From assembly GCA_946478635.1 (NCBI GenBank), contig CAMLCX010000094.1, forward strand, positions 1 to 12,639: DNA of 12,639 nucleotides. The letters run 5' to 3'. The DNA comes from an uncultured Pseudomonadota bacterium (GTDB lineage: Bacteria; Desulfobacterota_B; Binatia; UBA9968). Of this stretch, positions 1-9,020 are shown one piece after another. The translations under genes and the position numbers were made by a program. The notes below the pieces were generated by a model, which saw nothing but the letters and a program-made list of their open reading frames with translations, was not told where the DNA came from and searched no databases. Each line of letters opens with the position of its first letter. Position 1 is the stretch's first letter.

Positions 1-468
1 GGCGAGATCCGCTTCGATAGTTTTATCTTCATGCACACCATCGGCCGGCCGGTGGAAACGTTCATTCAGTTCGCGGGACTGATGTACGGCGGCGTTGCCG
101 AACGCTTTCCCAAGCTGCGCGTCGCTTTTCTCGAATGCGGCGTTGGCTGGGTGCCCTATTGGATGGAACGCATGGATGAAGAATGGGAAAAGCGAGGCAA
201 GGTCGAAGCGCCGCTCTGCAAAAACAAACCGAGCGAATATATCAAGCGCGGCAATTGGTTCTTTGCCATGGAACCTGAAGAAGAAACGTTGCCTTACGTC
301 ATCGAACGAATCGGCGAGGACAAAATCATTTTTGCCTCCGACTATCCCCATTGGGACGGTATCTTCCCCCATGTGGTTTCGACCATTCGCGGCCGCAAAG
401 ATATTTCCGAGTCAGCCAAAAATAAGGTTTTAGGCGAGAACGCCAAGCGCTTTTACGGCTGGCAATGA
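1..468 (+). CDS. Amidohydrolase_2 family protein, C-terminal part (5' end outside window)
   Basis: The frame is open from base 1, so the ATG at 31 is internal and the N-terminal half with the first metal-binding motif lies upstream of the window. About 155 residues are visible. They carry the second half of an amidohydrolase_2 (COG2159) TIM barrel: FPKLRVAFLECG followed by a W-x-P-Y-W-x-E-R-M helix, then YIKRGNWFF, and the late-barrel motif IIFASDYPHWDG, whose Asp is the family's conserved metal/catalytic acid, and a C-terminal NAKRFYGW ending. Family members are metal-dependent hydrolases or non-oxidative decarboxylases of small carboxylic acids. The protein parallels the amidohydrolase at 1577-2713 block by block, so the two are paralogs. 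Its TGA stop overlaps the ATG of the next gene (ATGA), which implies one transcript. The substrate cannot be told from sequence. Confidence 0.9.
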   Translation, partial: GEIRFDSFIFMHTIGRPVETFIQFAGLMYGGVAERFPKLRVAFLECGVGWVPYWMERMDEEWEKRGKVEAPLCKNKPSEYIKRGNWFFAMEPEEETLPYVIERIGEDKIIFASDYPHWDGIFPHVVSTIRGRKDISESAKNKVLGENAKRFYGWQ

Positions 469-3499: not shown

Positions 3500-4222
3500 A
3501 TGGCAAACTGGGATGACATTCTGACCGCGCGCGATAAAGAAGTTTTCGCGTTATCCGGATTTGGCAAAAAAGCCGGCTTTGGCCAGCGACCGGTGTTGCT
3601 CATCATCGATGTCAATTACAATTTTACCGGCGATAAGCCCGAACCGATTTTACAATCGGTGAAACGCTTCCGCACCAGCTGCGGCGAGGAAGGCTGGGAC
3701 GGGGTTTATAAAATCCGTGAGCTGCTCGCCGAAGCGCGGAAAAAACATTTGCCTACTTTTTACACCACCGCCGAGGAGAATCGCGCCAATTCGACTGTTT
3801 TAGTCGGCGGCTGGGCGGCCAAAAGCAATCGCACCACCGAAGACATGACCGAGCAGTGGGAGAAAGCCAATCAGATCGTCGAGGAAATCGCGCCGCAAGC
3901 CGGCGATATCGTCGTGCACAAGCAGAAACCAAGCGCGTTCTTCGGCACACCGCTCATGAGCATGCTCAATGAGGTGCACGCGGACACGCTGATTGTCACT
4001 GGGACGACCACCAGCGGCTGCGTGCGCGCGAGCGTCATCGATGCGTTTTCCTACAATATGAGAGTTTCCGTCGTAGAGGAATGCGTCTTCGACCGCGGGC
4101 AGGCGTCGCACAAGATCAACCTTTTCGACATGGCGATGAAATACGCCGACGTGATTTCGCTCAAAGAGACGGTCGATTACATCCGCGGCCTGCCGGACAA
4201 CCTCTACGCGCCGGCGCTGTAA
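3500..4222 (+). CDS. Isochorismatase-fold cysteine hydrolase (N-carbamoylsarcosine amidohydrolase-like)
   Basis: A 240-residue protein; the ATG is preceded by a GGGGG run (3488-3492) at 7-nt spacing. The isochorismatase/cysteine hydrolase catalytic triad is visible: D37 in RPVLLIIDVNYNF, K141 in the K-x-x-x-S-A-F-F-G-T motif (141-150), and nucleophile C174 in VTGTTTSGCVRAS, where the preceding T/S residues form the usual cis-peptide oxyanion site. The tail (SVVEECVFDRG, DMAMKYADVIS) is also standard. Family members hydrolyse amides such as N-carbamoylsarcosine, nicotinamide or ureido acids through a Cys thioester. The long N-terminal lead (about 30 residues before the first strand) favours the N-carbamoylsarcosine-amidase-like branch; the true substrate is unknown. 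It is followed 21 nt later by a small broken gene, probably on the same transcript. Confidence 0.9.
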   Translation: MANWDDILTARDKEVFALSGFGKKAGFGQRPVLLIIDVNYNFTGDKPEPILQSVKRFRTSCGEEGWDGVYKIRELLAEARKKHLPTFYTTAEENRANSTVLVGGWAAKSNRTTEDMTEQWEKANQIVEEIAPQAGDIVVHKQKPSAFFGTPLMSMLNEVHADTLIVTGTTTSGCVRASVIDAFSYNMRVSVVEECVFDRGQASHKINLFDMAMKYADVISLKETVDYIRGLPDNLYAPAL

Positions 4223-4913: not shown

Positions 4914-6017
4914 ATGATCACGGCCCACGCCGATGTTGTCGGCAGCCTGCTTCGTCCAGCAGGGTTGCTTGCGGCCCAAAAGCAGCTCGACGCCGGAGCC
5001 ATTTCTGCGGCTCAATTCAAAGTAATCGAGGATCGCGCGGTTGACGAGGCGATCGCTTTACAGGAAAGCGTCGGTCTGGAGATCATCACCGACGGCGAGA
5101 TGCGCCGGCAGTCATTTCAGAGTCAAATGACCGCGGCCGTCAGCGGCTTTGGCAAGCATGATCTCGATGCATTTCTCTGGGGAGAGTGGCGCGATGTCGA
5201 GGGCGTGCAGAGAAAACGCCGGCCGCGGCGCCTCGGCGCGGTCGCCAAACTCAAGCGCAATCGCTATCTCTCGGCGGATGAATTTTCTTATCTCAAGAGC
5301 AAAACCAATCGGATCCCCAAGATTACCATTCCGAGCCCAGGCCTGTGGTCGAATTTTTGGTCGCCGAAATATTCGCGCGATGCCTATCCAACACTCGACG
5401 CCTTTCTATCGGACATCGTTCAGATCCTTCGCGAGGAAGTCCTCGAGCTTGTCCGACTGGGAGCTTTGTATATTCAAATCGACGCGCCGCATTATGGGTT
5501 GCTACTCGATCCCGCGACACGGAGCTTCTATGAAGGGCTCGGCTGGAGTTTTGCCAAGTGGCTTTCCCTTGGCATCGATCTCGACAATGCGGTGATGAAG
5601 GGCTTTCCCGACGTGACCTTCGGCTTTCACGTTTGACGTGGCAACCAGGGCAGCCGGTGGCTGTCCCAAGGGGGTTACGAAGTGATTGCCCGCGAATTGT
5701 TTCGGCGCATCGATGCCCAGCGACTGCTCCTGGAGTATGATGATGCCCGGTCCGGCTCGTTCGAGCCATTGAGGGATATCCCGCAAGATAAATTTGTTGT
5801 TCTGGGGCTGGTAACGACGAAACAGCCCGGTCTCGAACCGATGGAAGTGTTGACCCGGCGGATTACCGAGGCCGCCCGGTATGTTTCAATGGAACGCTTG
5901 GGACTCAGCCCCCAGTGCGGATTTGCTTCGTCGATTATCGGCAACCGCATTTCTCCGCAGGATCAAAGGCGAAAGCTCGAGCTTGTGGTCAACCTCGCGA
6001 AAACCGTCTGGCCATGA
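4914..6017 (+). CDS. MetE-like cobalamin-independent methyltransferase; candidate selenoprotein (in-frame TGA, U241)
   Basis: A 367-residue protein if TGA 5634-5636 is read through. It matches the short, single-barrel MetE-C-type (COG0620) family, which moves methyl groups to thiols at a zinc site. The N-terminus has ADVVGSLLRP (6-15) and an EIITDGEMRRQSF block (about 56-68); IQIDAPHY (about 188-195) follows. At 235-244 the protein reads T-F-G-F-H-V-U-R-G-N, where relatives have H-x-C-R-G-N: H239 and residue 241 are the zinc ligands. The other ligands are intact: E274 in LLLEYDDARSG and C335 in SPQCGFASS. U-to-E and E-to-C spacing agrees with the MetE zinc site (E. coli C643-E665-C726 type). 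After the TGA the same frame continues, conserved and without defect, for 126 residues to TGA 6015-6017. ATG 4914 is the only usable start (TAG at 4905), with no strong ribosome site. Alternatives are a nonsense mutation, a base error, or a split gene restarting at GTG 5682 behind a GGGGG run. Confidence 0.75.
5634..5676 (+). promoter_or_regulatory. Candidate Sec codon with bacterial SECIS-like hairpin
   Basis: TGA at 5634-5636 is followed 11 nt later by a strong stem-loop: GGG+CAGCC (5648-5655), loop GGT (5656-5658), then GGCTG (5659-5663), bulged T5664, and CCC (5665-5667). Eight base pairs form the upper stem. AACC (5643-5646) can pair with GGTT (5673-5676) to extend it across an internal loop. 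The loop starts 19 nt after TGA and begins with G, which fits the described bacterial SECIS pattern (E. coli fdhF also has GGU at about this distance and a bulged U, though on the 5' arm). The segment is also coding. Folding and SelB binding are not tested. Confidence 0.55.
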
Positions 6018-6025
6018 CGCTCGCC

Positions 6026-6778
6026 TCAGGCATCCTGCGTCAGCGCTCGCAGCAGCAAGAGCACGCCGATCACGCACAGCAGCGCGAGCAGGCCACGGTT
6101 GAAGTTCCTCTGGTTCACTCGATCTTGGGCCTTGATGCCGGCAAAAAATCCCGCCAGGGTGAACAGCAGTACCTGTATCGACAAAGTGATGGTATCCCAA
6201 TTGAATAAATTCCACGTCGAGATCGCCACCAACTGGCTGAGTTTAGTGATGACAAAAACGGTGGCGAGCGATTTCACGAAAGTGCGCTTGTCTAATTTGA
6301 GACTGTAAAGATAAATCGCCAGCGTCGGTCCCGCAGCGTTGGTCAAACCGTTCAAGAAGCCGCTCACAAAGCCAAATATCGGAGACAGAACTTTCTCCCG
6401 GCGCGGCGAAATAGTGAAATCGACCTTGAGGAGATTCGATAGAACGAAGAGGATCACCATCACGCCGAGACAAAAATTCAAGATCCACAGGGGCGTATTC
6501 ACCAAAGCCATCGTGCCGAGAAACACGCCGATGATTGTCGGTAAAATCAAGCTTGAGAATCGCCGGAAAACTTCGTATGGAAAGCCGTCGCGAATCACCT
6601 GCGCGGAATCCATGAACAGGTTCGGTAGAATCAGCACGGTCACTGCGGTGCGGATATCCAAAAGCAGCGCGATTGTCGGCGTCGCGATAAGGGGAAACCC
6701 GAGACCGGTGGCGCCTTTGACAAAAGCGGCGAGCAAGAGCGCGGCGCCGACGAGAACGTAAGTTAGATCAAATGACAT
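6026..6778 (-). CDS. TauE/SafE (DUF81) family membrane permease
   Basis: A 250-residue integral membrane protein with about eight hydrophobic segments and little soluble sequence. It shows the family's internal two-fold repeat: the first half opens with AAFVKGATGLGFPLIATP (17-34) and the second with FGFVSGFLNGLTNAAGPTLA (136-154), both carrying the G-x-x-x-G/N-x-x-G-P/F signature. TauE/SafE proteins export or import sulfite, sulfoacetate and other small organic anions; the substrate here is unknown. Length is normal for the family. It converges with the MetE-like gene, leaving 8 bp between stops, and its start is only 32 bp from the divergent gene at 6811, so the two must share that short upstream segment. 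No clear ribosome site is seen before ATG 6778. Confidence 0.88.
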   Translation of the reverse strand: MSFDLTYVLVGAALLLAAFVKGATGLGFPLIATPTIALLLDIRTAVTVLILPNLFMDSAQVIRDGFPYEVFRRFSSLILPTIIGVFLGTMALVNTPLWILNFCLGVMVILFVLSNLLKVDFTISPRREKVLSPIFGFVSGFLNGLTNAAGPTLAIYLYSLKLDKRTFVKSLATVFVITKLSQLVAISTWNLFNWDTITLSIQVLLFTLAGFFAGIKAQDRVNQRNFNRGLLALLCVIGVLLLLRALTQDA

Positions 6779-7296: not shown

Positions 7297-8895
7297 CTAT
7301 GTCTTCTTCCTCTGTCCTGCCTGTTTCGTGCCGGTGGCGAAATAATTGCCTTTCACAGCTTGGGACGCTTCTTCTTCGTCCTGCTCGCTCCAGGCGCCAA
7401 GACTATAACCGTACCAAGGCATCCGCGGTTTGAGCGGCGGCAATTCGAGTTCTTCCCAAATTTGCTTGGAACGCTCCATAAATTCTTTTTTCGGCAGCGA
7501 CACCGGCGTATAAGGCCACGGCCGCACCGCGTTGATCAGCAGCGCTGACGTCGAACCCGGCCGCTTTTCTTCACTCTCCATTCCCGGCGGGTACGTCGAT
7601 GGATCGAGACCGGGGGGTTTTCCTTTTGCAATCGCCACGTCTTCGTCCGGGCGCATACTGTAACAGATTGCCCAATTGATCATGGCGGGATCGTGAATAT
7701 CGACGTCTTCGTCCACTGCGATGCACACTTTGGCGTAACTTCCGCTGAAACCCGCCGAGGCGTTCAAGGCGCGCCAGGCGTCGGCTTTGCTGGCGTTGCG
7801 CATCTTGATGACACAGTAGGCCTGGCCGCTGCCGCTGACTTCATCATGCAGCGCGACGTCGATCACGGCTGCGTTACCGCTGTCGTGGCGCAAAAACTTG
7901 AAGATGATTTTCTCCGTGCCGGTGTGTTTGATTTTGCTCGACTCGCTCGGCGGAAATTGGCTCATCAGCGCCGTGTAGATGGCGTCGCGCCGGTGGGTGA
8001 TGCAACTGACTTCGAGGAACGGCGACATGCTTCTGTGCCCCATGTAACCGGGATATTCGCCGAACGGTCCCTCGGGCTCCACCACGTCGGTGGCAATGGT
8101 TCCTTCAATAAGGATTTCAGCGGTAGCCGGTACGAGCAGATCGACGGTTTTGGCTTGGACGACCTCGATGGGCGCCCCGGCCAGACCGCCGGCCAGTCGA
8201 TACTCGTCAAAATCATAGGGAATTTTTGCTGTGGCGGAATACGCGATGCTCGGTACCACACCGATGGCAATGCACGCTTCGAGTCGCTTTCCTTTGGCTT
8301 TGCATTTCCGCCAGTGCTGCCCCATATGCTGCGAAGTAAAAAATCCGCCGGTGCGATTGGAAGACTTAATCTGGCTGCGGTAATTGCCGATGTTGTAAAT
8401 GCCGGTTTCGAGGTCTTTGGTGATCCAATTGGCGGAAGTAAGATACGGCGCGTTGTCGAACCCTGGAGTGGAAATCGGCACTGGAATCATGTCTAAACCG
8501 TGTCCGTTCAAAAGATCCGCTCCCTGCCAAACCACCTCATGAACCGCTGCCGATTGAACTTGAACCGGTTCGATGGGGTTGAGTTGCGCCTTCGCCCAGC
8601 GTTCGTGAATCTGGTCCGGCTCGCACATCATGCCGATGGCGTATATTTCCGTGGTCGCCGCCAAGGTCCCCACAGTAACAGGCATGCTGTAGCGCCGGCC
8701 TTTGGTGTCGACCACATTCTCGAACATAAAAGCCTTGCGCTGGCCCTCATCGAGACCGCGGAATTGCCAGCGCACCAGGGGCATCAGCTCGGTGTCCTTG
8801 TTGATTTCCCGCTTGATACGAAGCAACTTGCCGCGCTCTTCAAGCACTTTGAGATGCTCACGAAAATCTCGATAATACTCGGTCTTGCTCGCCAT
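7297..8895 (-). CDS. UbiD family decarboxylase (prenylated-FMN type)
   Basis: A 532-residue protein from ATG 8895, supported by GGGAG at 6-nt spacing; the in-frame ATG at 8925 lies upstream of that site. UbiD enzymes reversibly (de)carboxylate aromatic or alpha,beta-unsaturated acids using prenylated FMN with Mn2+ and K+. Residues expected for the cofactor site are visible: GIYNIGNYRS (165-174) with N168 and R173, H190 in TSQHMGQHW, and E231 in FDEYRLAGG; the catalytic acids are E275 and E280 in EPEGPFGEYPGYMG (273-286). Length is near the upper normal range (about 450-520), with a charged C-terminal tail ending KQAGQRKKT. No UbiX-like prenyltransferase is in the window, so prFMN must come from elsewhere. 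With amidohydrolases nearby the substrate may be an aromatic acid (inference). It is divergent from the histidine kinase gene. Confidence 0.93.
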   Translation of the reverse strand: MASKTEYYRDFREHLKVLEERGKLLRIKREINKDTELMPLVRWQFRGLDEGQRKAFMFENVVDTKGRRYSMPVTVGTLAATTEIYAIGMMCEPDQIHERWAKAQLNPIEPVQVQSAAVHEVVWQGADLLNGHGLDMIPVPISTPGFDNAPYLTSANWITKDLETGIYNIGNYRSQIKSSNRTGGFFTSQHMGQHWRKCKAKGKRLEACIAIGVVPSIAYSATAKIPYDFDEYRLAGGLAGAPIEVVQAKTVDLLVPATAEILIEGTIATDVVEPEGPFGEYPGYMGHRSMSPFLEVSCITHRRDAIYTALMSQFPPSESSKIKHTGTEKIIFKFLRHDSGNAAVIDVALHDEVSGSGQAYCVIKMRNASKADAWRALNASAGFSGSYAKVCIAVDEDVDIHDPAMINWAICYSMRPDEDVAIAKGKPPGLDPSTYPPGMESEEKRPGSTSALLINAVRPWPYTPVSLPKKEFMERSKQIWEELELPPLKPRMPWYGYSLGAWSEQDEEEASQAVKGNYFATGTKQAGQRKKT

Positions 8896-9020
8896 GGAAT
8901 GCTCCCAGTTTTTACCTCTTGTCATCTATTGACCGCGTGGCGCAGCTTGTCAAGCCAGGGCCGCGCGCTAAAGATTCATCGCCTGTAAAAGTTGGACTTG
9001 GCGGAGGCGTCAAATCGGCC

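Follow-up and report, generated by a model that had tools for sequence, protein, structure and literature searches.

The window (the whole 12,639-nucleotide stretch of DNA analysed here) carries a MetE-like gene which very probably encodes a selenoprotein. In this best explanation, taken as a whole, selenocysteine (Sec) would be inserted at codon 241 by the SECIS/SelB route, would hold zinc as a selenolate and would serve in thiol methyl transfer. The selenoprotein interpretation was put forward in an earlier note on this DNA, and it is supported by the analysis described below.

Gene and protein family

The features of the gene and its surroundings are listed in Table 1. With the TGA read through, the gene comprises 368 codons: there is a single internal TGA (codon 241), which is followed by 126 residues and a terminal TGA. 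The read-through translation thus bears out the earlier remark that the gene ends with a TGA as well. With PF01717 (Pfam) the product scores 57.4 bits, where the cut-off is 21; it is a MetE-type barrel protein. It is a single barrel of 367 residues, and its AlphaFold2 model shows the MetE fold.

Table 1. Features of the window

Feature	Position	Strand	Details and basis
Isochorismatase-family hydrolase, upstream neighbour	3500-4222	+	PF00857; context
MetE-like (PF01717) candidate selenoprotein gene	4914-6017	+	367 residues, Sec at 241; read-through translation, Pfam, 23 aligned TGA relatives, AlphaFold2 model
His239 codon, predicted zinc ligand	5628-5630	+	invariant column; motif counterpart of T. 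maritima MetE His618
In-frame TGA, predicted Sec codon	5634-5636	+	codon 241, second zinc-ligand position (H-x-C); aligned TGA/Cys in relatives
Predicted bacterial SECIS hairpin	5637-5679	+	upper stem 5648-5655 with 5659-5666; loop GGU 5656-5658; 19 nt past TGA
Glu274 codon, predicted zinc ligand	5733-5735	+	invariant column
Cys335 codon, predicted zinc ligand	5916-5918	+	invariant column
TauE/SafE-family permease, convergent downstream neighbour	6026-6778	-	PF01925; context

Cobalamin-independent methionine synthase (MetE) has Cys at the second ligand position of its C-terminal barrel, whereas the window gene is predicted to have Sec. MetE also has an N-terminal folate barrel, which is absent from the window product; identity over the T. 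maritima barrel is 17-18%, and the full-length MetE equivalog model TIGR01371 gives only 30.1 bits against a cut-off of 929.95. The core (folate-independent) methionine synthases MesA-MesD share fold and residues with the window product. They differ by the predicted Sec and are only distantly similar in sequence (21% identity to 3rpd). The closest named families are the PRK06520/PRK06233-type MetE-like proteins, but the window product is below the curated cut-offs of both (252 vs 313 and 227 vs 576). The shortfall with NF005085 (PRK06520), which is the closest NCBIfam subfamily (252.3 bits, cut-off 313), is counted against the best explanation. The closest solved structure is 1ypx from Listeria, which has Cys in the H-x-C motif, unlike the TGA of the window.

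The zinc ligands of T. maritima MetE are His618, Cys620, Glu642 and Cys704 (PMC539065), and their counterparts in the window gene are His239, codon 241, Glu274 and Cys335. Columns 239, 241, 274 and 335 do not vary across the 30 rows of an alignment (in which the window was entered with Cys in place of the TGA), in keeping with the H-x-C, E and C ligand pattern. H239, E274 and C335, which the earlier note described as intact, are all present. S11, E62 and D190 are likewise invariant in the 30 rows and align with the Ser, Glu and Asp through which MetE binds homocysteine; they are equated by motif with Ser433, Glu484 and Asp599, for which these roles are described in PMC7857596. The window enzyme is likely to be a thiol methyltransferase.

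Conservation of the TGA

Together with the window gene, 23 further genes from several phyla make up a set of 24 distinct TGA genes. Each has one internal stop only, and in each it is a TGA at codon 241. The aligned residue is Cys in 29 distinct Cys rows, and also in 120/120 full-length relatives among the matches listed. The placement of the TGA at the zinc-ligand Cys of a MetE-like gene is thus upheld, and the search of homologs for either Cys or an aligned TGA found both. A chance nonsense mutation had been called unlikely, and the recurrence of a single internal stop at the same codon in 24/24 genes agrees with this; stops scattered elsewhere in relatives were also looked for, and none of the 24 has a further internal stop. 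One suggestion did not hold: the possible restart codon at 5682 is GTG in 1/24 TGA genes, that of the window alone, and is not conserved.

These counts are given after removal of duplicates. They derive from a scan of genome contigs, which gave 29 loci, and from further loci found in genome searches. The TGA-form record titles in the contig scan are Deltaproteobacteria (5), Acidobacteria (1), Candidatus Poribacteria (1) and uncultured bacterium (1). Three partial loci (L027-L029) end before codon 241 and were left out. L026 was left out of both the TGA and the Cys sets, as its stop is at another place and its match is split in two. This MetE-like match (L026:6001-7099) has its TGA elsewhere and probably contains a frameshift.

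Of the matches with E 1e-120 or better, 12/13 are of the TGA form in 148 genomes of one class, as are 3/3, 7/7 and 1/1 in sets of 38, 84 and 16 genomes. Among 395 genomes of the phylum of G002, a TGA gene was found in G002 and in G223; the other matches are distant paralogues without stops.

The sequence past the TGA is under purifying selection. In 23 pairs, identity to the window is 62-80% before the TGA and 62-74% after it, and for the latter part five closer pairs give dN/dS values of 0.09-0.21 (many wider pairs have a saturated dS). The conserved sequence which had been described for the 126 residues past the stop is therefore confirmed. UGA terminates 9/24 of the TGA genes; it is also the ordinary stop for 5/9 other window genes, so this codon has not lost its stop function in general.

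In a quick tree built from 55 rows after masking of the trait residue and omission of 8 distant paralogues, 7 Sec/Cys changes are needed, at least three of which are forced by starred branches. Gain is not distinguishable from loss in this tree, and 25 of its 52 inner branches are weak.

SECIS hairpin

The limits given for bacterial SECIS elements are a loop of 3-9 nt with an early G, 16-37 nt after the UGA, on a stem of at least 4 bp with an energy of -7.5 kcal/mol or lower (PMC13188914, section 5). The upper stem in the window lies within these limits, with 8 bp, a GGU loop, a distance of 19 nt past the UGA and an energy of -12.8 kcal/mol. The 48 bases from the UGA fold with a minimum free energy of -25.1 kcal/mol (z -3.54; 0/200 shuffles as low). 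Rfam and ARAGORN found nothing on the window.

Across the family the picture is uneven. The full SECIS model is passed by 11/24 TGA genes (10 via the +19 hairpin and one via another), none of them Poribacteria-like, and several TGA genes have unremarkable folding z-scores. It is also passed by 9/29 Cys genes, because the coded SRWL motif is itself near-palindromic. Hairpin energy was therefore rejected as a discriminator between TGA and Cys genes. Mean stem length differs little (5.9 in TGA genes vs 5.0 in Cys genes).

The loop is more informative. G[G/U] is kept in 24/24 TGA genes, compared with 7/18 Cys genes; 11 of the 29 Cys rows, under about 54% identity, are omitted from this 18-gene comparison. 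The expectation from Arg codons elsewhere in the same genes is 46% for the TGA genes and 7.6/18 for the Cys genes, so that the TGA genes alone depart from it (Fisher p 7e-6, which overstates the significance given the relatedness of the sequences). Columns 18-30, which are mostly synonymous third positions, are paired in 23/24 TGA genes with four pair types, vs 9/18 Cys genes. The covariation score of the TGA alignment beats 500/500 shuffles, whereas for the Cys alignment 178/500 shuffles score as high. Pairs changed on both sides are not above shuffles in the TGA alignment (2 against a shuffle mean of 1.1, with 148/500 as high), nor in the Cys alignment. RNAalifold supports a 6-pair core only. 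SECIS support across the whole family is moderate, and it varies between genes.

Selenocysteine machinery

The genome of a relative in which the gene is flanked by neighbours in the order seen in the window (L001/G001) has all four of tRNA-Sec, SelA, SelB and SelD. Among eight TGA-form genomes, tRNA-Sec is over the cut-off (69 bits or more) in six and below it in two, SelA is found at 467 bits or more in seven with weak matches only in the eighth, and SelD is over the cut-off in all eight, seven of which have an in-frame TGA in selD as well. SelB is over the cut-off in 8/8 of these and in 12/15 more TGA-form genomes, or 20/23; at E 1e-60 it was not found in G223, G533 and G540. Assemblies with missing or weak tRNA-Sec, SelA or SelB may be incomplete. 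In G007, the genome of L008, tRNA-Sec (76 bits) and SelB accompany weak SelA matches only, which is probably an assembly gap.

The sole Cys gene of the window's class is in G529, where SelB was likewise not found at E 1e-60. SelA is present in 13/17 genomes of the 16 Cys-form loci and L026, so the Cys form is not simply a mark of Sec loss.

Gene neighbourhood

In the phylum of G007, selD lies directly downstream on the same strand in 6/7 TGA-form loci (L113, L093-L096, L098 and L099). This adjacency is a link to selenium metabolism that does not depend on the codon. At L113:5609-8081 there is a short open frame between the TGA gene and selD, and selD apparently has its own in-frame TGA.

In the window's class the neighbours are different genes. 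The TauE/SafE-family permease is convergent downstream in the window and in 9/12 other TGA loci, and an isochorismatase-family gene is upstream in the window and in 5/12; several of these flanks are short. The permease may possibly be linked to sulfur or selenium export. At L001:5261-5933 the upstream isochorismatase-family match consists of two overlapping pieces in different frames, and the gene may be frameshifted. Elsewhere in the window (1-468, 1577-2713 and 7297-8925) two Amidohydro_2 genes and one for a UbiD-family decarboxylase lie close to an NMT1-like binding protein; the set looks like one for the breakdown of small organic compounds.

Database copies

Databases keep the TGA form as fragments of about 240 residues. 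When residues 1-240 are used as the query, 120/120 of the matches listed stop at H-V/I/L directly before codon 241. The closest of them is 93% identical to the window, and P0132 is labelled Candidatus Binatia. With the Poribacteria-like G606 form as the query, 111/120 of the matches listed end at this place, another 7 are Cys forms of full length, and the remaining 2 belong to neither kind; 14 clusters among these matches sit on contigs of at least 4.9 Mb, and the G606 copy of the TGA gene is itself on a contig of 5,156,246 bases. The fragment rows reveal the end point of the protein but not the identity of the stop codon. With a full-length query all matches listed are Cys forms, because the TGA form is stored in shortened copies that receive lower scores.

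Proposed mechanism and alternative explanations

The conserved codon, the hairpin and the machinery argue strongly that the SECIS hairpin past the UGA would bring SelB and Sec-tRNA-Sec to the ribosome, which would insert Sec at position 241. By family, length and predicted fold, the product would consist of one MetE-type barrel and would lack the folate barrel. His239, Sec241, Glu274 and Cys335 are predicted from the alignment and fold to hold the catalytic zinc, and one of the zinc thiolates would thus be a selenolate. The zinc may in turn activate the thiol that takes part in methyl transfer, which is most likely homocysteine. The benefit of Sec is a matter of speculation: it may tune the nucleophile, or it may ease the reversal of oxidation of both ligands. 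A disulfide between both ligand cysteines is described in zinc-free MetE crystals (PMC539065), so a more easily reduced Sec-Cys bond might be an advantage.

The proposed reaction is the part of this explanation that is most open to an alternative. The enzyme might be a selenoprotein without being a methionine synthase, and might transfer methyl or alkyl groups with a different thiol or a selenol as acceptor or donor, for example in organosulfur or methyl-selenium salvage. This shares everything with the best explanation except the substrate. It would suit the selD gene directly downstream in 6/7 loci of one phylum, the TauE/SafE-family neighbour in the window's class, and the existence of homologues tied to methyl-selenium metabolism in another branch of the superfamily (PMC10418091). 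The miss of the closest NCBIfam subfamily points the same way, as the subfamily name may not hold for this clade. However, the columns aligned with the homocysteine binders of MetE (S11, E62 and D190) are invariant, and the alternative substrate is regarded as a tentative possibility, though one of real weight.

Doubts about Sec itself carry far less weight. Gene callers terminate the protein at the TGA, which is also the stop at the end of the window gene, and under the true-stop alternative the gene would be a pseudogene, the TGA would be a sequencing error, or a fragment of 240 residues would be functional. Such a fragment would be without E274 and C335. Moreover, purifying selection past the TGA, its position at the same codon in 24 genes that are otherwise free of internal stops, and its occurrence in independent assemblies (one of them the 5,156,246-base contig) make a true stop extremely improbable. 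Reading of the UGA by a route other than SelB, such as a UGA-reading tRNA inserting Cys or Trp, is very unlikely as well, if by a hair less so. It could account for the weak SECIS of the Poribacteria-like group and for the 3/23 TGA-form genomes in which SelB was not found, but the Sec machinery is present in most TGA-form genomes, and the only Cys gene of the window's class is in a genome without a SelB match. It is also opposed by the loop bases, which are kept in TGA genes only, and by the use of UGA as an ordinary stop in the window.

Relation to known selenoproteins and significance

Redox functions are attributed to most of the prokaryotic selenoproteins that have been catalogued (PMC13188914, section 7). 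In formate dehydrogenase (Mo/W) and [NiFeSe] hydrogenase (Ni), Sec replaces a Cys metal ligand at the active site (same section), as is predicted here. However, these are redox enzymes with other metals, whereas zinc and methyl transfer are predicted for the window gene. Table 1 of the same 2026 review has 119 prokaryotic selenoprotein families or subfamilies; the whole table contains no PF01717 or methionine-synthase entry. No report of a Sec MetE-like protein was found in a full-text search of mostly freely accessible papers. The gene is accordingly rated as a member of a selenoprotein family that is absent from the 2026 list and is derived from a known enzyme family.

It is probable that this is an uncatalogued, non-redox selenoprotein family in which Sec ligates the catalytic zinc of a thiol methyltransferase. 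The family would be widespread in Candidatus Binatia-like and Poribacteria-like bacteria, with several Sec/Cys exchanges, a link to selD in one phylum, and a record hidden as 240-residue fragments. A sizeable set of public proteins is thus stored without the C-terminal third. Natural Cys relatives reach 79% identity to the window protein among the matches listed, which makes a direct comparison of Sec and Cys forms feasible. If the interpretation is true, Sec at the catalytic zinc of a methyltransferase would give this amino acid a role in metal-activated nucleophilic chemistry.
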